Assembly: GCA_001899635.1 (NCBI GenBank)
Contig: MKVQ01000040.1
Span: forward strand, 127,915-191,914
Direction: 5' to 3'
DNA length: 64,000 nucleotides
DNA from: Myxococcales bacterium 68-20
GTDB lineage: Bacteria; Myxococcota_A; Polyangia; Polyangiales; Polyangiaceae
Numbering within the stretch: position 1 is the first letter of the stretch; each line of letters opens with the position of its first letter. Under the pieces are notes generated by a model that did no database searches, was not told the DNA's origin, and saw only the letters and a list, made by a program, of their open reading frames with translations. Made by a program: the position numbers and the translations under genes. Shown here one piece after another: positions 2,864-34,142 of the stretch.

Positions 2864-4081
2864 TTGTCAGTGACAGAACGTGGTCGAGAGCCGCATTGCG
2901 GCTCAAACATGGGGGCGAGCACGGTGGACAGCACACGTGCCGGGCGTATCGGTATCGTGGGGGGTGGGATCGCTGGACTCACGGCGGCGATCGCGCTTGC
3001 TCGCGACGAGCGGTTCGAGGTCGTCGTCTACGAGAAGGCGCCGGAAGCTCGCGGGCGAGGAGCAGCGCTCCTCGTCTGGTCGAACGCCATCACCGCGCTC
3101 TCGAGCATCGGCCTGGCCGACGAGGTGAAGAACGCCGCTGCTGCGCTCGACGTCACGGAGGTGAGGAGCGCCGGCGGGGAGCTGCTCAGCAGCCTTCCCA
3201 TCGGCACGTGGAGCGAGCGGTTCGGCGCGCCGACGGTCGTCATTCGCCGTCCTGTTCTCCTCGACATCCTCGGCGCTGCACTTCCTCGAGCCACCGTGAA
3301 GATCGGCGCCTCGCTCCGCTCGTTCACCCCCGGGGCTCGTGGCGTGCGTCTGTGTTTCGAGGACGGGTCGATGGACGACGTCGACGCGCTGATCGGCGCC
3401 GACGGGCTGCACTCGAGCGTGCGCCGTCAGCTCCTCGGCGACGAGCCGACGCGCGCAGGCGGCTACGACGCGTGGGTCGGGATCACGCCAAACCGGCCGG
3501 AAGGGCTCCGCACGGGCGTGGCGACCGCCACGGTCGGGAACGGCCCTCGATTCTGGACGGCGGTCCTGCGCGATGGGTCGGTGTTCTGGTACGCGACGCT
3601 GAATCGTCGCGGCCGCCCGCCCATCAGACGTCGCGAAGAGCTCTACGAGGTGTTCCGCGATTGGCCCGCGCCGATCGCCGAGCTCATCGCGTCGACGCCG
3701 GACACCGAGCTGATTCGAACGCAGATCCGAGACCGTCTTCCCGTCGACCAGTGGGGCGCTGGCCCCGTCACGCTCCTCGGTGACGCCGCGCATCCGTCCA
3801 CTCCCGATCTCGGACAGGGCGCATGCCAGGCGATCGAGAGCGCGATCGTCCTCGGTGAATGCGTGCGCGGCAGCGCGCAGATCGAAGGCGGCTTCCGGGA
3901 GTACGAGCAGCGAAGGATGCCGAGGACGGCGGCCATCAGTCGGCTCTGTTGGATGACGGCTTCGAACAGCACGATCGAGGGGCCCTTGGTGTGCCGCCTG
4001 CGGGACGTCGCCATCCGCGTCGGGCTCGAGTCGATCGCGCGCTCGTCGCTCCAATGGATCCTTGCAGGGCACGCGCAATGA
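2864..4081 (+). CDS. FAD-dependent monooxygenase (aromatic hydroxylase/zeaxanthin epoxidase-like)
   Basis: A flavoprotein monooxygenase of up to 405 aa. Motifs: GGGIAG FAD-binding loop (residues 33-38), DALIGADGLHSSVR (DG motif), and LLGDAAHPSTPDLGQG (GD motif near 305-320). The family uses NAD(P)H and O2 to hydroxylate or epoxidise aromatic or isoprenoid substrates. The start is uncertain: TTG 2864 and GTG 2870 give the longest forms, but ATG 2909 leaves only about 10 residues before the FAD motif and fits the family better. A 17-bp palindrome (2888-2904) lies just before ATG 2909. The stop overlaps the polyprenyl synthase start by 4 bp, suggesting an isoprenoid substrate. A paralogue lies at 52874-54082. 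Confidence 0.9.
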   Translation: MSVTERGREPHCGSNMGASTVDSTRAGRIGIVGGGIAGLTAAIALARDERFEVVVYEKAPEARGRGAALLVWSNAITALSSIGLADEVKNAAAALDVTEVRSAGGELLSSLPIGTWSERFGAPTVVIRRPVLLDILGAALPRATVKIGASLRSFTPGARGVRLCFEDGSMDDVDALIGADGLHSSVRRQLLGDEPTRAGGYDAWVGITPNRPEGLRTGVATATVGNGPRFWTAVLRDGSVFWYATLNRRGRPPIRRREELYEVFRDWPAPIAELIASTPDTELIRTQIRDRLPVDQWGAGPVTLLGDAAHPSTPDLGQGACQAIESAIVLGECVRGSAQIEGGFREYEQRRMPRTAAISRLCWMTASNSTIEGPLVCRLRDVAIRVGLESIARSSLQWILAGHAQ

Positions 4082-5271
4082 CGGCTGCGCCGGCGATCAC
4101 TGCCAGTCGCGTGGACGTACGAGGGTACCTCCGCGATTGCCGTACGCTCGCCGTCGAGGAGATCCAGCGCTTCGTTCCTCGCGATACCGCGCTCGGTCCC
4201 GTCCTCTACGATCTCGTCCTCGACTATCCGCTGCGCGACGCCAAGGGCCTCCGGCCCGCGCTCTGTCTCGCGGCATGCCGTGCTCTCGGGGGTGCGGAGT
4301 CTGCGGCGCTTCCCACGGCGGCGGTGATCGAGCTCTATCACAACGCGTTCCTCGTCCACGACGACATCGAAGACGGATCCGAGCGACGTCGCGACTCGCC
4401 CACGCTGCATCGCGAGCACGGCGTCGCGATCGCGATCAACGTCGGCGACGCGATGCTCGCGCTCGCCCTCGAGCCGCTCCTCGACAACACGCGGCTCATC
4501 GGGCTCGGGAAATCGCTCCGCATCCTCCAGGTCGTCGCGCAGATGGCGCGGGAGACGGCGGAAGGGCAGGCGATGGAGCTCGACTGGGTCCGTCATCCGA
4601 CGAGGGACGTCACCGATGACGACTACCGGCAGATGGTCGTCAAGAAGACGGGCTGGTACAGCTTCATCGCGCCGGTGACGCTCGGCGCGATCATCGCGGG
4701 CGCGACGAGCGAGCAGATCGCGACGCTCCACCGATTCGCCGAAGAGCTCGGCATCGCCTTCCAGATTCGCGACGACGTCCTGAACCTCGAAGGCGACGAG
4801 GTCCGCTACGGGAAAGAGAGCTGCGGCGATCTCTGGGAGGGCAAGCGGACGCTGATGCTCCTCCACATGATGCGGTCGGTGTCGCCGGAAGACCGACGCG
4901 AGGTGACGCGCATTCTGGCGGCGCCGCGTCCCGAAGGAGCGTCGAGCTCGACCCTCGACGTCGTCGACGTGTCGCTCCTGGCGAAGCTCGAGGCGGAGGG
5001 CCATCTGACGGAGCAGGGACGGCGTCGGCTGGAGCGTCATCTGCATGAGAGAGACGCTTCGCACGTGGTCACCAAAACGGCGGCCGACGTGGAGTTCTTG
5101 TTCCAGCGGATCCAGGCGAACGGCAGCCTCGCGCACGCGAACCGTGTCGCTCGCGAGCATGCGCAGCGCGCGCGCAGCATTCTCGATTCCGCCGATGCGT
5201 GGCTCGCACGCTCGGTACATCGAGACCTGCTCTACGCGCTCGTGGATTTCACCATCGGTCGTGAGACCTGA
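4078..5271 (+). CDS. Polyprenyl (geranylgeranyl/farnesyl-type) diphosphate synthase
   Basis: A 397-aa trans-isoprenyl diphosphate synthase joining isopentenyl diphosphate to allylic diphosphates. Visible motifs: KGLRP (56-60), first Asp-rich motif DDIED (95-99) followed by GSERRR, GQAMELDW (163-170), KKTGW (189-193) and second motif QIRDDVLNLEGDE (232-236 core). The second motif is DDxxN rather than the usual DDxxD, as in some fungal and animal GGPP synthases. ATG 4078 overlaps the preceding stop (ATGA). About 50-80 residues after the catalytic core form a helical extension beyond the usual ~300-aa length. Product chain length cannot be read from sequence. Confidence 0.93.
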   Translation: MTAAPAITASRVDVRGYLRDCRTLAVEEIQRFVPRDTALGPVLYDLVLDYPLRDAKGLRPALCLAACRALGGAESAALPTAAVIELYHNAFLVHDDIEDGSERRRDSPTLHREHGVAIAINVGDAMLALALEPLLDNTRLIGLGKSLRILQVVAQMARETAEGQAMELDWVRHPTRDVTDDDYRQMVVKKTGWYSFIAPVTLGAIIAGATSEQIATLHRFAEELGIAFQIRDDVLNLEGDEVRYGKESCGDLWEGKRTLMLLHMMRSVSPEDRREVTRILAAPRPEGASSSTLDVVDVSLLAKLEAEGHLTEQGRRRLERHLHERDASHVVTKTAADVEFLFQRIQANGSLAHANRVAREHAQRARSILDSADAWLARSVHRDLLYALVDFTIGRET

Positions 5272-5305
5272 ATCGGAGGTTAGCGCTCCGATCTTGCGCA
5301 GGGGT

Positions 5306-5384
5306 GGGGCTTCGGCCCGTGTCGAACTTGGGGCTCGCGCCCCAACCACCCGCAGAGGAGGGCCTTCGGCCCGTATCGAAATTG
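5306..5384 (+). repeat. Direct repeat pair with UUCG-type hairpins
   Basis: Two 25-nt copies (5306-5330 and 5360-5384) differ at three positions. Each contains a GGGC-TTCG-GCCC-like hairpin, and a third hairpin (TTGGGGC/GCCCCAA, 5328-5345) lies between them. The block fills the only sizeable gap in the isoprenoid-like cluster and ends 9 bp before the next start codon, so as RNA it would be three stacked hairpins ahead of a ribosome binding site. Confidence 0.7.
5327..5355 (-). repeat. Dispersed GC-hairpin repeat, copy A
   Basis: On the minus strand this reads CTGCGGGTGGTTGGGGCG then CGAGCCCCAAG. It matches copies at 15855, 17841 and 31645 and contains a 7-bp stem (TTGGGGC/GCCCCAA) with a 4-nt loop. 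Confidence 0.65.
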
Positions 5385-5393
5385 AGGGGAAGA

Positions 5394-6107
5394 ATGAGCA
5401 AGAAGGAATCCGAGTCGCGCGGCAAAGACGAGGCCCAGACCCTCGACGATCTCCGGAAGCTGTCCATCACCGCCGCCCACGAGCTCCTCTCTGGCTTCGA
5501 TCGTCTGAAGCAGCTCCGTGATGACTGGGAGGGCTCGGACGTGAATGGTCGGGTGGACGAGTCGCAGAAGCGTCGCGAGCGCGCCAAGGCTCTCGCCTAC
5601 GAGCTCGCTCGCCACGAGATCAAGCACGCGGAGAAGATCCTCAGCCTGAGCCACGCACAAGCGGACCTGCTCTTCGAGCACGCGCGCAGCCTCGTCCGGC
5701 GGATGCGTTACGGGGACAGTCCGTCGCCCGCCGTCGTCGAGCTCCGCGCCGCGACGTCCGAGCCGAGCGAGCCTGCGGTGGGGAGCCTCGGCATCAGGAA
5801 TCCCTTCGACACGAACGCCGATCCTCGCTTTCACCTCGGACCGTTTTCGACGCAGAGCGGAGACGAGGTCGCAGGGCTGAAGGTGAAGCTCTCGTGCGAC
5901 CCGTCGTGTGTTCCGCCTCACGGGGACGCGGAGGTCATGCTCGAGGTGGACATCGAAGGAGCGGAGGGATGCGCCCCGGGTGTCTACTTCGCCGAGCTCA
6001 CGGTGTTCCTCGTCGGTGTCGTCGAGCAGCGCGTGGCACGACGGCTCCTTCGCCTTCGGATCGGCAAGACGCGAGAAGGAGAGCGGAACGAACGTGGCGG
6101 ACGTTGA
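5394..6107 (+). CDS. Unrecognised cluster protein, helical N-terminus and beta-rich C-terminus
   Basis: A 237-aa soluble protein with no signal peptide or membrane segment. Residues 1-110 are charged and helical (SKKESESRGKDEAQ, then HEIKHAEKILSLSHAQADLLFEHA). Residues 130-230 look like a beta-sandwich (NPFDTNADPRF, LSCDPSCVPPHGDAEVML, GVYFAELTVFLVG) with three Cys. ATG 5394 is chosen because GAGGGGA lies just upstream; an in-frame GTG at 5304 would read through the repeat block. The gene overlaps the next by 14 bp. I do not recognise the family. Its conserved position between the prenyl synthase and lipocalin genes suggests a structural or partner role. Confidence 0.75.
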   Translation: MSKKESESRGKDEAQTLDDLRKLSITAAHELLSGFDRLKQLRDDWEGSDVNGRVDESQKRRERAKALAYELARHEIKHAEKILSLSHAQADLLFEHARSLVRRMRYGDSPSPAVVELRAATSEPSEPAVGSLGIRNPFDTNADPRFHLGPFSTQSGDEVAGLKVKLSCDPSCVPPHGDAEVMLEVDIEGAEGCAPGVYFAELTVFLVGVVEQRVARRLLRLRIGKTREGERNERGGR

Positions 6108-6510
6108 CGATGATCTGCTCGCGCTCCTCGAGCTGATCGGGACCGAGCCCGAGGACGAGCTCACCCGCGTCCTCTGGCAGGCGCATCTGCTCCTCGCCAA
6201 ACATCCCGTCGCGGCGCGGGCAGCGTTCCGTGCCCTCGCGGCTCAGGGCAGGTGCTTCGCCGAGACGAACGAGGGCGCGCAGTGGAAGGAGCGCCTCGCG
6301 GGCTCGGAGCTGATCCAGCGAGGCCGCTCCGTCTGGGAGCTGGCGACGCTCGGCATGCTCGACGAGTCACCGCGTGTCCTGCCGGCTCAGTTCGTCGACA
6401 TGCTCTCGTACGCCGCGGGCCTCGCGGATCTCGAGCCCGTGCTCGCGCGAGCAGCGGAGCCGCCGCGCATCGGGGAGGACGTCGACCTCATCGAGTCGGA
6501 GTCGCGATGA
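6094..6510 (+). CDS. Small unrecognised acidic helical protein
   Basis: A 138-aa soluble acidic protein, mostly predicted helix (DDDLLALLELIGTEPEDELT, QAHLLLAKHPVAARAAFRAL). GTG 6094 is chosen because AAGGAGAG lies about 10 nt upstream; the start lies inside the end of the preceding gene and the stop overlaps the next start (ATGA). No signal, transmembrane segment or catalytic motif. The alternating helices recall TPR-like packing, but no repeat consensus is clear. Function unknown; tight coupling says it belongs to the cluster. Confidence 0.7.
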   Translation: MADVDDDLLALLELIGTEPEDELTRVLWQAHLLLAKHPVAARAAFRALAAQGRCFAETNEGAQWKERLAGSELIQRGRSVWELATLGMLDESPRVLPAQFVDMLSYAAGLADLEPVLARAAEPPRIGEDVDLIESESR

Positions 6511-6869
6511 CCTCCGAGGTCCGCCGCGTGCGTGCACGATTCGCGGACGACAATCCGCTCCTCTACCTCTCGCTGGGGCTCCTCTCGTCGTTCGATACGC
6601 TCGAACGCCTCCTTGCGGCCCATGCACCGGAACGATCGCGACCGGGGCCGGCACCGGCACCGGCACCGGCACCGGCACCGGCACCGGCGCCCATCAAAGG
6701 CTCGGACGTTGAGATGGAGGCCGTTCACTTCGTCCTGGGGCTCATCGCCCTCCGTGCCCGCATCGGGGCGCGACTCGGCGAGACCGCCGCGCCGGCGAGT
6801 GCACCGAGTCCGACGACCGCGCCGTCCGGAGGTGGTCTCGAAGAAGGGAGCGAATCGTTGTGGCGATGA
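6507..6869 (+). CDS. Small unrecognised protein with Ala-Pro hinge encoded by a hexanucleotide repeat
   Basis: A 120-aa protein in which two hydrophobic helical blocks (about 17-41, NPLLYLSLGLLSSFDTLERLL, and about 68-92, EMEAVHFVLGLIALRARIG) are joined by a (Pro-Ala)n linker encoded by a perfect GCACCG tandem repeat. It starts inside the ATGA overlap with the preceding gene and overlaps the following one by 10 bp. The similar helical blocks (LYLSLGLLSS and VHFVLGLIAL) suggest an internal duplication or a helical hairpin that might associate with membranes. Family not recognised. Confidence 0.65.
   Translation: MTSEVRRVRARFADDNPLLYLSLGLLSSFDTLERLLAAHAPERSRPGPAPAPAPAPAPAPAPIKGSDVEMEAVHFVLGLIALRARIGARLGETAAPASAPSPTTAPSGGGLEEGSESLWR
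6651..6686 (+). repeat. (GCACCG)6 microsatellite in coding sequence
   Basis: Six perfect tandem GCACCG units with imperfect flanking units, encoding alternating Ala and Pro. The unit length is a multiple of three, so slippage would change linker length without a frameshift. Confidence 0.9.
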
Positions 6870-7951
6870 TGACGACCGGGCGCGCTCCTGTCCCGCTTGT
6901 GCCTCTGGACGCACGGGCCGTCGGGATGAGCGTCGCGCGGACGAACTTCATGCGCCGTCCGGCATCCGAGCCGGCGCGAGTCGGTCATCGGGAGTGGCTG
7001 CATTTCTCGATCGGCGGGCCGGACCTCACGTTGCTCGTGAACATGAGCGTCGTCGACGACCAGCGGCCGTCGGTCCCGCGCGGCTGCGAGCGTGGGCGGG
7101 TCCTCGTCCTCGTTCGCGATTCCGGGGGCTGGGGCGGCGGCGCGGACGAGGTCGGCGCCGCGGAGCTCGAGGTCCACGGTGGTCGCGTCTTCGTGGCGCT
7201 CGCCGAGAGCAGCGTCGATCTCGTCGCCGGCGTCTTCGTGGTGAAGGTGCGGCTCCGGGATCGCCCGATCGCCTTCGAGCTCGAGCTCCGTCCGCGGGCG
7301 TTTCCGTCGATGGCGAGCAACGTCGCCATCGGTCCAGGCGAGGAGCCGATCAACTGGGTCGTCGTCCCGGACCTCAGCGCCGACGGCTGGCTCGAGATCG
7401 CCGGAGCGCGCCGCCAGATCCGGGGCGCGCCGGCCTACCACGATCACAACTGGGGATACTTCAGCCATCGCGACTTCGCGTGGCAGTGGGGCCATGCGCT
7501 CCCCGACGACGGAGCGAGCCCGTTCAGCGCCGTGTTCGCGCGTCTCCTCAACGGCGCCCAGACGGAGACGTACATGCAGTCGCTCCTCTTGTGGCGTGAC
7601 GGCCGGCAGTACCGCGTGTTCCGCGAGGACGAGGTCGAGGTGAGCGCGGAAGGGCTTCTGCGGAAGGACGACTTCTTCACCGTGCCGCGGACGGCGAGGC
7701 TGCTCACTGGAGGGACCGCGGCCGACATCCCGAAGCGTCTCCGGATCGAGGCGAAGGGAAGGGGCGATGCGGTCTCGGCATGTTTCGAGGCGATCGACGC
7801 CGCGCGGATCGCGGTCCCGAACGAGCACGACCTCGGCACGACGCTGATCCACGAGGTCGTCGGTGTCTTCGAGCTTCGCGGCGTCGTGAGAGGTGAGCCC
7901 GTCGCGCTCGGCGGGCATGCGGTCTTCGAGTACCTGGGGCGGGGCGCATGA
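6860..7951 (+). CDS. CrtC/AttH-type lipocalin-fold protein (possible terpenoid hydratase/cyclase)
   Basis: A protein of about 363 aa related to carotenoid 1,2-hydratase CrtC and the AttH family, a double lipocalin-like fold. The diagnostic motif AYHDHNWGYF is at residues 192-201. Characterised relatives hydrate carotenoid double bonds (CrtC) or catalyse pericyclic/cyclisation steps in fungi (decalin-forming Diels-Alderases). No signal peptide is seen. Starts at GTG 6860 or ATG 6866/6869 are possible; GAAGGGA lies about 10 nt upstream of GTG 6860. Its stop overlaps the SCP2 gene (ATGA). Placement after a GGPP-type synthase makes an isoprenoid substrate likely; the exact reaction is unknown. 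Confidence 0.8.
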   Translation: MAMMTTGRAPVPLVPLDARAVGMSVARTNFMRRPASEPARVGHREWLHFSIGGPDLTLLVNMSVVDDQRPSVPRGCERGRVLVLVRDSGGWGGGADEVGAAELEVHGGRVFVALAESSVDLVAGVFVVKVRLRDRPIAFELELRPRAFPSMASNVAIGPGEEPINWVVVPDLSADGWLEIAGARRQIRGAPAYHDHNWGYFSHRDFAWQWGHALPDDGASPFSAVFARLLNGAQTETYMQSLLLWRDGRQYRVFREDEVEVSAEGLLRKDDFFTVPRTARLLTGGTAADIPKRLRIEAKGRGDAVSACFEAIDAARIAVPNEHDLGTTLIHEVVGVFELRGVVRGEPVALGGHAVFEYLGRGA

Positions 7952-8370
7952 GCGGCGCGATGCGAGCGCTCGTCGACGATGTGCTCGATTGCGTGGCGCT
8001 CGAATGCCCGGAGGCCTACCTCGCGATGCAGCGAGCGCTTGGCGCTCGGCGGATCGGCCTCGCGTTCCGTCACGAGTCGTTCTCGCTCGCGTTCGCGCCT
8101 GCGCCCGCGCCCGCCGCGGAGGGTTGGTTCTCGGAGCAACCGATCGCGATCCGGACGACGGCGCGGACGCTCCACGACATCCTGATGGGCGAGCGCGATC
8201 CGCTCGACGCCATCCTCGCCGACGAGCTGACTGTGCACGCCGGTGCGGATGACCTCGTCGCGGCGGCGGAGGCGGGGCTCTTGTTCGTGAAGGGCGCGGC
8301 GCGATGCACGTCGCTCGCCCCGATGCTCAGACGCCTGAAGAACCTTGCGGAGGGAGAGGGAGAGTCATGA
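7948..8370 (+). CDS. SCP2 sterol-binding domain protein
   Basis: A 140-aa single-domain protein. The pattern AIRTTARTLHDILMGERDPLDAILADELTVHAGADDL (quoted in parts: RTTARTLHDILMG, then DPLDAI and DELTVHAGADDL) is typical of the sterol carrier protein-2 fold, with a hydrophobic tunnel for lipids. No signal sequence. It overlaps both neighbours by 4 bp, so it is probably translated with the lipocalin upstream and the FAD oxidoreductase downstream. A lipid carrier would suit handling of a hydrophobic isoprenoid intermediate. Domain assignment is good; the ligand is inferred. Confidence 0.8.
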   Translation: MSGAMRALVDDVLDCVALECPEAYLAMQRALGARRIGLAFRHESFSLAFAPAPAPAAEGWFSEQPIAIRTTARTLHDILMGERDPLDAILADELTVHAGADDLVAAAEAGLLFVKGAARCTSLAPMLRRLKNLAEGEGES

Positions 8371-10733
8371 CCGAGAATGTGTCTTCGGCGCGAAAACGTT
8401 CGGTGACCATCTTCGGAGCCGGTGTCGCGGGCCTCACCGTCGCGCACGAGCTCGCGGAGCGGGGCTTCGAGGTGGAGGTGATCGACCCGGACATTCGGGA
8501 GGAGATCCACTCCTTCACGCTCGATCGAGGCATCGGCGGGATGGCGCGCTCCCAGTGCGGGTGCTGGCTCGCGTCGCTTGCCCCCGAGGTGACGATGGCG
8601 GGGGCGCCTCTCCATTTCGATACCGGGACGGACTTCCTGCTGAACGACGTCCTCGTGTTCGATGAGCCGTCGAAGCTGCCGGCGGATCCGCTCTACGCCG
8701 AGCAGCTGGTGGATCGAGTCGCCGAGCTGCTCCGGCGGCTGGTCGGCCCGACCAACGACATGAGCCGCGCCTCGGAGCTCACCATCGCTGCTCCGGACTC
8801 GCGCCTCGGCACACGCGAGCCCGGCGACCCCGCGTCGGACTATCGCGTCGAATGGATGAAGAAGCAGCTCGTTGCGAAGCTCGGCGGCCTCGCGGGGGCC
8901 GTCGATCACCTCGAGGTCGAGCACCCGATCGCCACGTCCCTCCAGGTCCCGGGGCACGCGGCGCCGAGGAACACATGGCTCTTCTTCCACCTGCCGGCGC
9001 TTCGCATCTTCCCTGCCGAGCACGGCTTTCGCTTCTTCCCTTCGTTCTATCGCCACATCTTCGACTCGCTGCGGCGCATCCCGCTCCACCATCCGCGACC
9101 GCACGAGACGACGATCCCGACCGTCCGCGAGAACCTCGTCCCAAGCGTGGGGCTCGGGTTTGCGCGCGCCGGAGCGAAGAAGTCGTTCCTCGTCCCGCGC
9201 CGCGAGATCAAGTCGCTCGAGGTGGCGAGGGGCTACTTGACGCTCATCCTCGAGGAGCTCGGCTACGAGCTTGGCGACGTGAAGCGCTTCTCGATCAAGC
9301 TGCTCACGTACATGACCTCGTCGACCAAGCGGCGGGCGGGCGAATACGAGAATCTCTCCTGGGGCAGGTTCGTCGAACAGCACAAGTACTCGAAGGTCAG
9401 CCGGGAGCACATCGAGTATGGCCCGGCGATGTCGGCCGCGCTTCGCGGATCGCTGAGCGACGCACGCACGCAGGGCTCGATCAGCGTGCAGCTGTTCATG
9501 GACCAGCTTCGGACGGATGGCCGGCCCGACTGCACGCTCAACGGCCCGACGAACTCGGCCTGGTTCAATCACTGGCACGACTACCTCTCCTCGCAACGCG
9601 TGCGCTTCCGGCGCGGCACGCTCGTGGGCTTTGGAGAGGTGGCGGGCGAGGTGCGGCCGCTGGCCTACCGCACCGTGGAGTACGACGCGAACGGCGAGGT
9701 CGTACGCCACTCGGAGAAGGAGATGATGACGACGGGTGAGTATTTCGTCCTCGCCCTCTCGCTCCCGGCCGCGACGAAGATCTCCGAGAAGTTCCTCGAG
9801 GTCGCGAAGGATAAGCTCCCCGCCGACAACGACTTCGAGCGCACGATCGCGTTCGCCGGCGATCTCGACACCGATCTCGTCCGGCCTGCGCCCGAAGGGC
9901 CGCTCCAGCACCTCAGCGGGATCCAGTTCTACTTCGACGCGCCGCTCGATTTCTGGCGTGGGCACACCCAGTACCTCGACGCTCAGTGGGGGCTCACGTC
10001 CATCTCGCAGCTGCAGTTCTGGGGCCGGGCGCGCGACAGCTCGGACGGGTACCGCGGCGTCCTCTCCGTCGACATCGGGATCTGGGACCGGAAGTACAAG
10101 GGCAAGTGCGCCTGGGAGTGCACGCCCGACGAGATTGCCGTGTATGCCTGGGAGCAGATCCACGATCACCACGACGGGGCGTTCCGCGCGCGTTACGGCG
10201 CGGAACGCCCGCTGCCGAAGCCCATCGCCTACGCGGTCGACGCGAACGTCATCTTCGATCCGACGCCGAAGAAGGACCTGTCGCCGTTCCTCGTGAACCG
10301 CGTCGGCGCCTATCCGAAGCGCCCTGGCCGTCTGATCGACGACGCCAGGCGCGCGACTCCGCCCGGGAAGAAGCCGCCAACCTCGAAGCAGATGTCGTTC
10401 TATGACGTCTACCTCGATCGATACGTCCTCGTCGGCACGTTCATGAAGACGTACACGCGCCTCACGTCGATGGAGGGGGCCAACGAGTCCGCGCGCCACG
10501 GCGTCAACGCGATCCTCACGCACGGGAAGGTCCTGTGCGAGCAGAGCGAGATCTGGGATCCGGAGGACAACGAGATCCCCGACCTCCAGTGGCTTCGCGA
10601 TCTCGACGAGCGGAGGTTCGAGGAAGGCAAGCCGCATCTCCTCGAGACGCTCGCGGCGTTCGATCCGTTCGAGAACAACCTCGATCTCTTTGCCGGTGCG
10701 TTCGACACCATTCCCTTCGGAGGTCGGTCATGA
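8367..10733 (+). CDS. Large FAD/NAD(P)-binding oxidoreductase (phytoene desaturase/amine oxidase superfamily)
   Basis: A 788-aa flavoprotein. The N-terminal dinucleotide-binding fold is clear (FGAGVAGLTVAHELAERG, glycines at 17, 19 and 22) and is followed by IDRGIGGMARS-like residues typical of the desaturase/amine-oxidase superfamily. The rest (about 200-600) is much longer than CrtI-type desaturases (~500 aa) and contains Trp/Tyr-rich blocks (FWGRARDSSDGYRGV, GIWDRKYKGKCAWECTP). The C-terminal part, ending FDTIPFGGRS, again contacts FAD in this superfamily. It closes the overlapping gene run. Redox modification of a prenyl product is the likely job; the substrate is unknown. Confidence 0.8.
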   Translation: MTENVSSARKRSVTIFGAGVAGLTVAHELAERGFEVEVIDPDIREEIHSFTLDRGIGGMARSQCGCWLASLAPEVTMAGAPLHFDTGTDFLLNDVLVFDEPSKLPADPLYAEQLVDRVAELLRRLVGPTNDMSRASELTIAAPDSRLGTREPGDPASDYRVEWMKKQLVAKLGGLAGAVDHLEVEHPIATSLQVPGHAAPRNTWLFFHLPALRIFPAEHGFRFFPSFYRHIFDSLRRIPLHHPRPHETTIPTVRENLVPSVGLGFARAGAKKSFLVPRREIKSLEVARGYLTLILEELGYELGDVKRFSIKLLTYMTSSTKRRAGEYENLSWGRFVEQHKYSKVSREHIEYGPAMSAALRGSLSDARTQGSISVQLFMDQLRTDGRPDCTLNGPTNSAWFNHWHDYLSSQRVRFRRGTLVGFGEVAGEVRPLAYRTVEYDANGEVVRHSEKEMMTTGEYFVLALSLPAATKISEKFLEVAKDKLPADNDFERTIAFAGDLDTDLVRPAPEGPLQHLSGIQFYFDAPLDFWRGHTQYLDAQWGLTSISQLQFWGRARDSSDGYRGVLSVDIGIWDRKYKGKCAWECTPDEIAVYAWEQIHDHHDGAFRARYGAERPLPKPIAYAVDANVIFDPTPKKDLSPFLVNRVGAYPKRPGRLIDDARRATPPGKKPPTSKQMSFYDVYLDRYVLVGTFMKTYTRLTSMEGANESARHGVNAILTHGKVLCEQSEIWDPEDNEIPDLQWLRDLDERRFEEGKPHLLETLAAFDPFENNLDLFAGAFDTIPFGGRS

Positions 10734-10776
10734 CTTTCGGGGCCGAACGCGCCCGACACGCTCCTCTGAAACGACC

Positions 10777-10811
10777 AGCTCGCCGCGCGTGACGTCAGCG
10801 CGCGGCGAGCT
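10777..10811. terminator. Strong GC-rich hairpin between convergent genes
   Basis: A perfect 13-bp stem (10777-10789 with 10799-10811) around a 9-nt loop. It follows the end of the isoprenoid-like cluster and covers the last codons of the opposing lipocalin gene. There is no T-run, so termination is inferred from position and stability. Confidence 0.55.
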
Positions 10812-11913
10812 GCGCGGTTGCCGCGTTCATGACCTCGACCCAGCAGTGACCCGCTAGGGCCCGGCTCGCATCGACGATGTGCGCCGGCCCCTCCCAGATC
10901 CCCGCGTCGAGCATCGGTCCGAAGGCCTTCATCCGCACGAACGGCGCCGCGATCGTGTGCTCGAGCGTCACGTGGAGATCGAGCTCGGGGACGCTCACGG
11001 CAAAGCGCGTCGGGCATGTTCCGCGGTCCGTACGTGTCTCGTACTTCTCGACGGAGGAGACGTCGAAGCGCGGCAGAGGACGGAGACCGCCGTCCTGCTC
11101 AACGAGCCAGCCGCCGCAGCCGAGGAGGCGCCCGTCGTTGGGCGATGCCCACCTTCCGGGGCCGCTGTCGCGCATCACGTAGCCCATGATCTCGCGCCCG
11201 TCGTCGAGGCGTAGCTGCACCCAGATCCACTTGACCTGGGTCGCGGTGACGGTCAGCCATTGGCGGTCCTGGCACGCGTCGCCCGTGAAGCGCTCGATCC
11301 TCTCGCGGCGGCCACTGCGCCGGTCGTCCATCGCGAGCTCGATCCGCCCACGCGCCGCGAGCCGCGGCCTCTGGACGTAGGCGGTCTCGACCGGACCTTG
11401 CCGGAGCCGCGGCGCGCCGCGCTCCCCGAACGCGAGGACGTCCTTCTCGGGGACGAGATAGAGCTCGACGTCGAAGTCGTCCGAGCGAGCTTTGATCGCG
11501 ATCGTGAACGAACGCGCGGTCTCGTCGCCGACCTCGAGCTGATGGATCTGGAGGTCGCCCCCTGCGGTCATCGCGGAGAACGAGGCCGCGTCGAAGTTCT
11601 CGTGCTCGATCTCGACCTCCACCGCGCGAGGACGGCGATCGGGGTGATCGAGGTCGTAGAGCACCGCCATGAAGAGCGGCCGGTCGTCGGACTCGAGCGC
11701 GAACGGCGAGAGGATCGGGAGCCACGGCGGGACGAGGCGTGCGAGCGGCGACGGGAGATCGGCCGGCGAGAGCACGCTCGGCCGGGCTCGCGCGCGCGTC
11801 CGGCGACCCGTTCGAGAGATCCATACGAGGACGGCGAACCTTCGAGGGCCGTGCTCGCCTTCTCCCGTCCCCTCGACCACGATCCAGTTGAACTCGCTCT
11901 GATTGACCGCCAT
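10795..11913 (-). CDS. Second CrtC/AttH-like lipocalin-fold protein
   Basis: 372 aa from ATG 11913. Parts such as FTGDACQDRQWLTVTATQ, MGYVMRDSG and the C-terminal GHCWVEVMNA resemble the two-domain CrtC/AttH lipocalin family, with the HDHNWG core changed to QDRQWL. The same frame continues upstream of ATG 11913 to the kinase stop with high third-position GC and plausible protein (RLRFPNASFDAQAELSVLL), but has no ATG, GTG or TTG there. GGGAG sits 7 nt before an ATT at 12033, and a CTG overlaps the kinase stop as CTGA. The real protein may therefore be about 412 aa with a rare start. It faces the isoprenoid-like cluster and may act in the same pathway. Confidence 0.7.
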   Translation of the reverse strand: MAVNQSEFNWIVVEGTGEGEHGPRRFAVLVWISRTGRRTRARARPSVLSPADLPSPLARLVPPWLPILSPFALESDDRPLFMAVLYDLDHPDRRPRAVEVEIEHENFDAASFSAMTAGGDLQIHQLEVGDETARSFTIAIKARSDDFDVELYLVPEKDVLAFGERGAPRLRQGPVETAYVQRPRLAARGRIELAMDDRRSGRRERIERFTGDACQDRQWLTVTATQVKWIWVQLRLDDGREIMGYVMRDSGPGRWASPNDGRLLGCGGWLVEQDGGLRPLPRFDVSSVEKYETRTDRGTCPTRFAVSVPELDLHVTLEHTIAAPFVRMKAFGPMLDAGIWEGPAHIVDASRALAGHCWVEVMNAATAQLAAR

Positions 11914-33290: not shown

Positions 33291-34142
33291 ATGTCGAAGC
33301 AGAAGAGCCAGCCCCGTTCACGCCGAGAACCCGCGTATCGCCTCCGCCGTTCCCCAGTCCACGGCACGGGAATGTTCGCGACACGTGCGATCCGGAAAGG
33401 CGCGCCCATCATCGAGTACGTCGGAGAGCGCATCTCGCACGAGGAAGCCGATCGACGCCACTCGACCAAGGCCGCCGACGACAACCACACCTTCCTCTTC
33501 ACGGTCGACTCGAAGACGGTGATCGACGGTGGCGTCGGGGGCAACGCCGCACGGTTCATCAATCATTCGTGCGAGCCGAACTGCGAGGTCATCATCGACG
33601 ATGGGCGTCTGTTCGTCGAAGCCGCACGAACGATCCGTTCGGGCGAAGAGATCGTCTATGACTACATGATCACCCGGGCGCCCGACGATGCGCCCGACCT
33701 CGAGCAAATCTTCGGCTGCCGGTGCGGAGCCGCGACCTGCCGAGGAACGATGCTCGAGCCGCGGAAGAAGCCCAAGGCGAGCAAGAAGAAGGCTGGCGGG
33801 CGGAAGTCGAAGAGCAAGGCGTCCTCGAACGGGCGGAAGCCGAAGAGCACGGCGTCCTCGAACGGGCGGAAGCCGAAGAGCACGGCGTCCTCGAACGGGC
33901 GGAAGCCGAAGAGCACGGCGTCCCCGAACGGGCGGAAGTCGAAGAGCACGGCGTCCTCGAACGGGCCGAAGTCGAAGAGCACGGCGTCCTCGAACGGGCC
34001 GAAGTCGAAGAGCACGGCGTCCTCGAACGGGCCGAAGTCGAAGAGCACGGCGTCCTCGAACGGGCGCCGCGGAGCCCTTCCGCGCCGCAAGACGGGGCAG
34101 ACGTCGCGCGGTCGCCGCTCGACGGCTTCGTCGTCGGGCTGA
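33291..34142 (+). CDS. SET-domain lysine methyltransferase with histone H1-like repeat tail
   Basis: 283 aa. A SET domain at about 17-132 has HGTGMFATRAIRKGAPIIEYVGE (read as HGTGMFA then IIEYVGE), the SAM/knot motif NHSCEPNC (91-98) and GEEIVYDY (118-125), followed by a post-SET zinc motif CRCGAATCRG. SET proteins transfer methyl groups to protein lysines. From about 155 the tail is Lys/Ser/Gly/Asn-rich and built of eight 11-residue units (KSTASSNGRKP-like), resembling H1-type DNA-compacting tails; some units have Pro for Arg. No signal peptide. A chromatin or nucleoid role is possible; the substrate is unknown. Confidence 0.9.
   Translation: MSKQKSQPRSRREPAYRLRRSPVHGTGMFATRAIRKGAPIIEYVGERISHEEADRRHSTKAADDNHTFLFTVDSKTVIDGGVGGNAARFINHSCEPNCEVIIDDGRLFVEAARTIRSGEEIVYDYMITRAPDDAPDLEQIFGCRCGAATCRGTMLEPRKKPKASKKKAGGRKSKSKASSNGRKPKSTASSNGRKPKSTASSNGRKPKSTASPNGRKSKSTASSNGPKSKSTASSNGPKSKSTASSNGPKSKSTASSNGRRGALPRRKTGQTSRGRRSTASSSG
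33804..34067 (+). repeat. Eight tandem 33-bp coding units
   Basis: Units run in phase with the SET gene and differ by single substitutions (AAGCCG/AAGTCG, CGG/CCG, TCC/CCC). Both strands are open in several frames here, which explains spurious reverse-strand proteins. Confidence 0.95.

Follow-up and report, generated by a model that had tools for sequence, protein, structure and literature searches.

We analyzed a 64,000-nucleotide stretch of the genome of Myxococcales bacterium 68-20 (contig MKVQ01000040.1, positions 127,915 to 191,914), referred to here as the window, and found that it contains a compact operon of eight forward-strand genes (window positions 2909-10733) whose products include a prenyl diphosphate synthase (P0002), a lipocalin-like protein (P0006), and a flavin adenine dinucleotide (FAD) oxidoreductase (P0008) (Table 1). 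The genome comprises 11.9 Mb in 52 contigs. Consecutive genes overlap by 4 to 14 bp, except at one 122-bp gap (5272-5393) that holds two 54-nt blocks which are 74% alike. P0001 and P0002 overlap by 4 bp, P0003 and P0004 by 14 bp, P0004 and P0005 by 4 bp, P0005 and P0006 by 4 or 10 bp depending on the start, and P0006/P0007 and P0007/P0008 by 4 bp each. A preliminary description, made from the sequence alone, had proposed a compact isoprenoid-like cluster whose genes overlap by 4-14 bp or are separated only by a repeat block, and the gene coordinates bear this out. It had placed seven genes after the prenyl synthase; the compact set stands, but the monooxygenase gene P0001 precedes the synthase and six, not seven, forward-strand genes follow it. 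The TTG at 2864 given there as the start of P0001 is possible, with the ATG at 2909 preferred. The second AttH-like gene that it saw converging on the operon, P0009, lies above the Pfam cut-offs for both CrtC and Lipocalin_9.

Table 1. Genes and features of the operon and its neighbors (window coordinates).
Feature	Description	Position	Strand	Basis or remark
P0001	FAD-dependent (FAD_binding_3) monooxygenase	2909..4081	+	Pfam PF01494, 58.8 bits; optional member
P0002	Short-chain prenyl diphosphate synthase (polyprenyl_synt)	4078..5271	+	Pfam PF00348, 216 bits
54-nt repeat	Two copies	5278..5385	.	Inside the sole intergenic gap
P0003	Helical N-terminus and Ig-like C-terminus	5394..6107	+	By eye from alignment
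P0004	Conserved protein of ~110 aa, no known family	6094..6510	+	37-43% identity to five homologues
P0005	Two LxLGLLS-type segments of similar sequence, Pro/Ala linker, SLWR at the C-terminus	6507..6869	+	
P0006	AttH/CrtC-type two-barrel lipocalin	6866..7951 (ATG 6866 or GTG 6860)	+	Predicted fold
P0007	SCP2-like lipid carrier	7948..8370	+	Weak profile matches to SCP2
P0008	Amine-oxidase/phytoene-desaturase-type FAD oxidoreductase, 788 aa, ~150-aa insert	8367..10733	+	
P0009	CrtC-family lipocalin, converging	10795..11913	-	Above the Pfam cut-offs for CrtC (32.3 bits) and Lipocalin_9 (38.6 bits)
KIN	Ser/Thr protein kinase and AAA ATPase, 1225 aa	12036..15713	-	Pfam Pkinase 133 and AAA_16 76.8 bits

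Our data indicate that this gene set is common, nearly gene for gene, to soil-dwelling myxobacteria and many mycobacteria. A collection of 84,980 species was scanned with alignment A5, which gave 156 pattern matches, 100 of them encoding a relative. The best 80 of these 100 relatives were retained; 68 (loci L074-L141) entered the gene counts, and 12 weak loci (L142-L153, of which 11 are titled Gemmatimonadales or Gemmatimonadetes and one Bifidobacterium breve) were left out of the counts and reused as controls. An earlier scan of genome contigs with P0008 itself found no relative. Nine rows that repeated a contig under a second name, as well as two fusion loci (L046 and L047), were excluded from the counts. 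The counted set comprises 39 mycobacterial and 37 other (mainly myxobacterial) loci, 76 in total and all distinct, with Plesiocystis pacifica supplying two of the 37. Of the 37 non-mycobacterial loci, seven were chosen by a match to P0004 and the rest by P0006 (L041-L045 by P0006 and P0008), and the chosen genes are present by selection in those loci. Presence was counted from profile searches of all reading frames; our home-made gene caller misses or misplaces genes, such as P0004 of L042. The counts are partly circular, as the profiles were made from the same loci, and 26 control stretches (389 kb) serve as a check. Some counted contigs are cut, and loci in which P0006 has 7 kb or more of sequence on both sides form a separate, well-flanked subset.

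We found that P0004, P0005, and P0006 each occur in 39 of 39 mycobacterial and 37 of 37 other loci and that the three genes lie on the same strand in 76 of 76. The prenyl synthase P0002 is present in all 39 mycobacterial and 32 of the 37 other loci (71 of 76 in all), the SCP2-like P0007 in 39 and 33 (72 of 76), and P0008 homologues in 39 and 31 (70 of 76). Other members are restricted to one side: P0003 homologues were found in 22 of the 37 non-mycobacterial and 0 of the 39 mycobacterial loci, a P0001 homologue (E<1e-20) in 6 and 0, and an encapsulin-like gene in 38 of the 39 mycobacterial and 0 of the 37 other loci, while a relative of the kinase-AAA gene is present in 37 of 39 and 20 of 37, respectively. 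The profiles of P0003, P0004, P0005, P0007, and the mycobacterial shell protein had no match in the 26 control stretches. Because these profiles are silent in the controls and P0004-P0005-P0006 share one strand in every locus, the neighborhood is more than chance. The preliminary description had named a failure of the genes to co-occur elsewhere as an outcome that would speak against it; the set co-occurs across the 76 loci.

Titles of the loci found with alignment A5 include Sorangium cellulosum, Polyangium, Corallococcus, Pyxidicoccus, Myxococcus, and Plesiocystis, together with an Anaerolineae, an alphaproteobacterium, and a Burkholderiaceae bacterium, and 39 loci bear the title Mycobacterium or Mycolicibacterium. 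The distribution of P0006 is patchy: of 116 genomes, a single-sequence search found it in 13, counting that of the window, and a profile search found it in 30 of 144, near full length in only 10 (nine and the window's own). Within the phylum the P0004 profile matched 12 of 282 genomes, again with the window's own among them. Midpoint rooting of a P0006 tree places the mycobacterial clade with Plesiocystis and then with Corallococcus, Pyxidicoccus, and Myxococcus, a grouping that hints at transfer. The tree distances of the synthase, P0006, and P0008 correlate (rho 0.44-0.75; 0 of 1000 permutations as high) over 25 of the 54 common loci, mycobacteria having been thinned. The operon of Mycobacterium lepraemurium (L140) looks decayed, its FAD and lipocalin genes matching as several pieces, and the operons of L136, L137, and L139, which have no FAD or kinase matches, share extra small proteins, such as a Cys-rich one (L137:4607-5269) with no Pfam hit.

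The structure of P0006 was modeled with AlphaFold2 from 38 sequences, with a predicted local distance difference test score (pLDDT) of 92.0. The best structural match of the model is AttH (2ich_A; Z 28.1, root-mean-square deviation 3.0, 289 residues aligned), followed by kievitone hydratase (7a0q; Z 25.5) and CghA (6kbc; Z 25.4). The 14 top entries are all AttH, kievitone hydratase, pericyclases, or 25-phosphosteroid lyase (Z 23.6-28.1), after which Z falls to 8.4, and in the predicted model the AttH-like two-lipocalin fold extends across the whole of P0006. An hhalign comparison of P0006 with three AttH-type proteins and P0009 gave a probability of 89.6% and an E of 1.9e-6 (four decoys, E 0.23-0.74), and in the profile alignment the P0006 segment YHDHNWG lies over the AttH motif WMDREWS. 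Six residues, Y193, D195, W208, W210, W46, and W166 (numbered from the GTG start), are invariant in 38 of 38 aligned P0006 members. Y193-x-D195 corresponds to Tyr266-x-Asp268 of CrtC, as judged by spacing and by the AttH-type profile alignment, not by the CrtC sequence. The Trp-x-Trp spacing also agrees with CrtC, and the distance from the Asp to the first Trp is 14 residues (13 in the window protein) versus 15 in CrtC.

Passages of a study of Rubrivivax gelatinosus CrtC report that alanine changes at His239, Trp241, Tyr266, and Asp268 abolish activity and propose that the conserved Asp protonates a double bond (PMC4717167). Parts of a second study name Trp110, Trp283, and Trp285 as further key residues linked to cation stabilization and describe the hydration of C12-C20 terpenes, with geranylgeraniol at only 4% (PMC12402844). 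Because its predicted fold and its Tyr-x-Asp and Trp residues are like those of CrtC, P0006 is likely to protonate an isolated double bond in a prenyl chain, with either water addition or ring closure thereafter. The CrtC family PF07143 matched one of 38 P0006 members at E<=0.01 (best E 0.005) and did not match the window protein. Filing P0006 as a CrtC was rejected as no Pfam cut-off was reached, and we retain the wording that it works like one. In the two fusion loci, L046 and L047, a single open frame (1201 aa and 1215 aa, respectively; Pfam was run on L047 only) encodes a lipocalin and a P0008 relative, which ties the functions of the lipocalin and the FAD oxidoreductase to each other.

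Four PF00348 genes are present in the window's genome, P0002 among them, which suggests that P0002 is probably a dedicated extra synthase copy. Of 67 called homologues, counted with duplicates, 65 carry HNAFLxHDDxED at the first Asp motif. Ala and Phe lie five and four residues ahead of this motif, respectively, an arrangement that, in the light of reported work on avian farnesyl synthase, suggests a C20 product. P0002 was also considered as a polyprenyl transferase cargo of family 2 encapsulins and rejected (NF041169, 189 bits versus a cut-off of 450). Beside the operon of the alphaproteobacterial L137 lies IspH (LYTB, 294 bits), and an acyltransferase-like gene adjoins the synthase in L137 (below cut-off) and in L139 (just above cut-off).

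The Pfam matches of P0008 are confined to the Rossmann region, with none to PF01593, while four shorter relatives match PF01593 over its full length (34-82 bits; cut-off 19.8); the insert of P0008 is placed after the Rossmann start. P0007 has no Pfam hit and does not reach the cut-off of PF02036 (SCP2), a mycobacterial homologue (L118:11019-11423) scored 18.3 bits against the SCP2 cut-off of 21.3, and the P0007 family profile weakly matched SCP2 structures in the PDB (sterol carrier 2cx7, E 0.016). The P0001 monooxygenase is an optional member; its homologue adjoins the FAD oxidoreductase in L159, L161, L162, and L163. P0009, present in a single copy in the window's genome, is probably optional as well. 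In L092 a lipocalin-like protein (L092:5793-7094; EWWWH motif as judged by eye, without a Pfam hit) separates the FAD gene from the kinase, the position that P0009 takes in the window. Pyxidicoccus caerfyrddinensis (L090:11437-20990) has several FAD oxidoreductase relatives behind the operon, three of them consecutive.

The products of P0003, P0004, and P0005 could be assigned to no described family. P0003 had nothing above the Pfam cut-off and no NCBIfam or PHROG match, and P0004 had no match above cut-off in Pfam and other family searches. Sequence searches of the PDB with profiles A6 (that of the mycobacterial shell protein), A5, and A2 gave no relative. Nothing marks the three as extra enzymes. 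A recurrent feature of P0005 is a Leu-Arg C-terminus, seen in 56 of 62 distinct homologues (33 of 34 mycobacterial and 23 of 28 other). Among other called genes this ending occurs in 4 of 1082 overall and in 4 of the 197 whose stop codon overlaps an ATG. The family mostly ends in [W/L/F]LR-COOH, with SLWR in the window copy. Because CGA precedes TGA in 43 of 66 P0005 genes (duplicates included), the final Arg may partly derive from the stop/ATG overlap; the preceding Leu is not accounted for by it.

In mycobacteria the gene just before the synthase encodes a protein of 246-279 aa (~255) in 35 of the 35 loci listed. Our data suggest that this protein has a divergent HK97/encapsulin fold. Its AlphaFold2 model has a pLDDT of 77.7 (model means 77.7, 75.9, 59.3, 55.3, and 45.5, so that two of the five are good), the best Foldseek match was 3.1e-14 with encapsulins first, and the top entry in the VIA comparison was 9i8e (Z 22.1, 14% identity). 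Rows 1-36 of that comparison are encapsulins, two of them shell particles titled otherwise, and phage capsids follow from Z 16.2. Hhalign of the shell protein with seven of nine family-1 encapsulin sequences (L173 and L174 were left out) gave a probability of 34% and an E of 4e-4 (four decoys, 0.08-0.72), and PF04454 matched 2 of 16 members at E<=0.1, the best E of 0.0019 being below cut-off. The mycobacterial operons close with either an additional protein or an extended P0008, in many cases containing an amphipathic segment that is repeated, and 21 of 36 of these tails contain [KR]SL[FY] within their last 46 residues. The short conserved C-terminal motifs of P0005 and of the mycobacterial tails are candidate cargo-loading peptides. 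An ordinary family-1 encapsulin is encoded far from the operon, on another contig of the window's genome (C1:317099-317854; PF04454, E 3.2e-81).

We found that the kinase-AAA gene, which lies outside the limits drawn in the preliminary description, belongs to the module and is a likely regulator, since a relative is present in most loci with enough flanking sequence (all 34 mycobacterial and 15 of the 19 other well-flanked loci). Its mycobacterial counterpart is an AAA-GAF-cyclase protein. The kinase profile matched eight control stretches, seven of them drawn from the 12 loci that hold P0008 relatives; in these seven (L048, L049, L051, L052, L056, L057, and L059), which lack the full operon, the kinase-AAA gene lies within the same 20 kb. 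Because of this proximity, P0008 and the kinase-AAA gene may form a separate module of their own. In Sorangium cellulosum So0157-2 a CHAT-nSTAND1-WD40 protein (L088:11504-15424), an architecture that we take to be one of conflict systems, stands in the place of the FAD gene, and there is no FAD oxidoreductase match. A defense reading was rejected, the PADLOC hits on the kinase being kinase-domain matches, and six terms looked for in two eLife papers on conflict systems (PMC7159879 and PMC8195603) are absent from both. Elsewhere in the window (33291-34142) lies a SET-domain-like protein with a tail of tandem KSTASSNG-type repeats, as seen by eye.

Taken together, we favor, with modest confidence, a reading in which one conserved operon makes and tailors a dedicated isoprenoid, probably C20, that is hydrated or cyclized and oxidized by scaffolded enzymes. 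This reading draws on the observed co-occurrence, gene order, and residue conservation and on the predicted folds of P0006 and the shell protein; from these we infer the reaction steps, chain length, scaffolding, docking, and regulation as follows. P0002 would build a prenyl diphosphate, presumably C20, and P0006 would act in the manner of CrtC, with the Asp of its Tyr-x-Asp motif protonating an isolated C=C bond of the bound chain and its Trp residues holding the cation until water addition or ring closure. P0008 would desaturate or otherwise oxidize the chain and P0007 would carry it. P0003, P0004, and P0005 may serve as scaffold or adaptors that keep the enzymes together, with the hydrophobic-Leu-Arg end of P0005 as a likely docking tag. 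In mycobacteria the assembly would be tied to the encapsulin-type shell, and the kinase-AAA protein, or the mycobacterial AAA-GAF-cyclase protein, may couple the system to a signal. A bolder version, which we regard as possible yet doubtful, is compartment- or scaffold-linked isoprenoid metabolism, in which P0003-P0005 assemble the synthase, the alkene-protonating lipocalin, and the FAD oxidase and the P0005 tail serves for docking, the mycobacterial scaffold is a new encapsulin family for which myxobacteria use P0003 instead, and the kinase or cyclase is a switch.

Several observations weigh against a dedicated, scaffolded isoprenoid operon. Members drop out in the 37 non-mycobacterial loci: six are without the FAD gene, five without the synthase, and four without P0007. 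The synthase is absent from L075 and L093 despite at least 7 kb on both sides (2 of 19 well-flanked non-mycobacterial loci), and in the same subset P0008 is absent from three (L088, L136, and L137). The correlated trees can also stem from the shared species history of the hosts. P0006 passes no Pfam cut-off and gives sub-threshold matches only, its fold by itself does not tell a hydratase, cyclase, pericyclase, or lyase apart, and CrtC His239 appears to be without a conserved counterpart, P0006 positions 164-165 before W166 being variable and holding no invariant His (the R. gelatinosus CrtC itself was not aligned). In five aligned sequences the second Asp motif of the synthase is DDxLN rather than DDxxD. 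Finally, the shell does not appear to be general, because the A6 shell profile found no relative in any of 19 genomes from outside the mycobacteria that carry P0006 or the operon, a search that had no positive control.

CrtC, a lipocalin, and CrtD, an FAD desaturase, form a known pair, and P0006 and P0008 might act like them in a carotenoid accessory operon, on C30 or C40 chains made elsewhere, with the synthase boosting geranylgeranyl diphosphate. A single SQS_PSY match was located in the window's genome, on a different contig, and 14 of 16 other operon genomes searched contain such a match; the two without one (G361 and G362, loci L106 and L118) speak against such a role, though an assembly gap could hide a match, and no phytoene or squalene synthase lies beside the operon genes in the loci inspected by gene list. 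We consider a carotenoid role unlikely. P0006 could instead be a cyclase or pericyclase, similar to tocopherol cyclase or a Diels-Alderase, that acts on a prenylated aromatic or polyene for which the FAD enzymes make the reactive partner. The pericyclases CghA, Fsa2, and Phm7 match the P0006 model at Z 24.7-25.5, six of 38 P0006 members have a sub-threshold Tocopherol_cycl match, and the window operon includes an FAD monooxygenase. This too seems improbable: the CrtC-type Asp and Trp residues indicate alkene protonation, and no aromatic prenyltransferase or polyketide synthase was recognized among the nine proteins scanned.

The same fold is also that of 25-phosphosteroid lyase (Z 24.1), and the genes could be read as a catabolic or signaling system that binds or degrades an external terpenoid or steroid and signals its presence through the kinase or cyclase, without making a new product. 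The neighboring SCP2-like protein and the kinase/AAA or AAA/GAF/cyclase protein would fit such a system, as would the Sorangium locus, L088, in which the CHAT-nSTAND1-WD40 protein stands where others have the FAD gene. A prenyl diphosphate synthase is biosynthetic, and its presence in 71 of the 76 loci makes this, in our judgment, very unlikely.

Compared to known systems, the enzyme types are known and their combination is new. In line with the preliminary description, open-access literature searches listed no described pathway with this gene set, and no terpene cyclase of the usual classes was recognized in the operon. Its lipocalin label for P0006 holds for the clear predicted fold and not for the Pfam hits, which are sub-threshold, and SCP2 as a label for P0007 agrees with the weak match of the family profile to SCP2 structures, the protein itself having no Pfam hit. 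The cyclase/hydratase role that it suggested for the lipocalin is supported, as a prediction, by the modeled fold and the catalytic-type residues. Its three unrecognized proteins still match no family, refined by the finding that none looks like an additional enzyme; its cluster limits need revision, with the kinase-AAA gene to be added and P0001, and probably P0009, to be counted as optional.

The operon resembles the CrtC/AttH-like lipocalins in the predicted two-barrel fold of P0006, its Tyr-x-Asp and Trp residues, and the FAD desaturase-type enzyme and prenyl synthase nearby. It differs in that P0006 has no above-cut-off CrtC match and appears not to keep His239 and in that the operon has new small partners and no recognized phytoene synthase. 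The mycobacterial version shares with family 1 encapsulins a predicted HK97 fold, the Z of 22.1 to 9i8e, and a length of ~255 aa, but its shell protein has only ~14% identity and no above-cut-off Pfam match, is encoded directly before a prenyl synthase, and was not found in the window's genome. Family 2 encapsulin operons carry terpene cyclase or polyprenyl transferase cargo, according to parts of PMC8346489, and similarly link a prenyl synthase to an encapsulin-type shell; in contrast, the mycobacterial shell is nearest to family 1, no terpene cyclase was recognized, and P0002 falls well short of the family 2 cargo model (189 versus 450 bits). P0008 shares its Rossmann start with the phytoene desaturase/amine oxidase FAD family (PF01593), to which its shorter relatives match in full, and differs in the ~150-aa insert and the partner kinase-AAA gene.

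If the reading of a dedicated isoprenoid operon is correct, lipocalin-fold enzymes would carry out terpene chemistry in an operon without a classical terpene cyclase, and mining rules based on cyclases would be expected to overlook such operons. Furthermore, dozens of mycobacteria would link a divergent encapsulin to isoprenoid metabolism.

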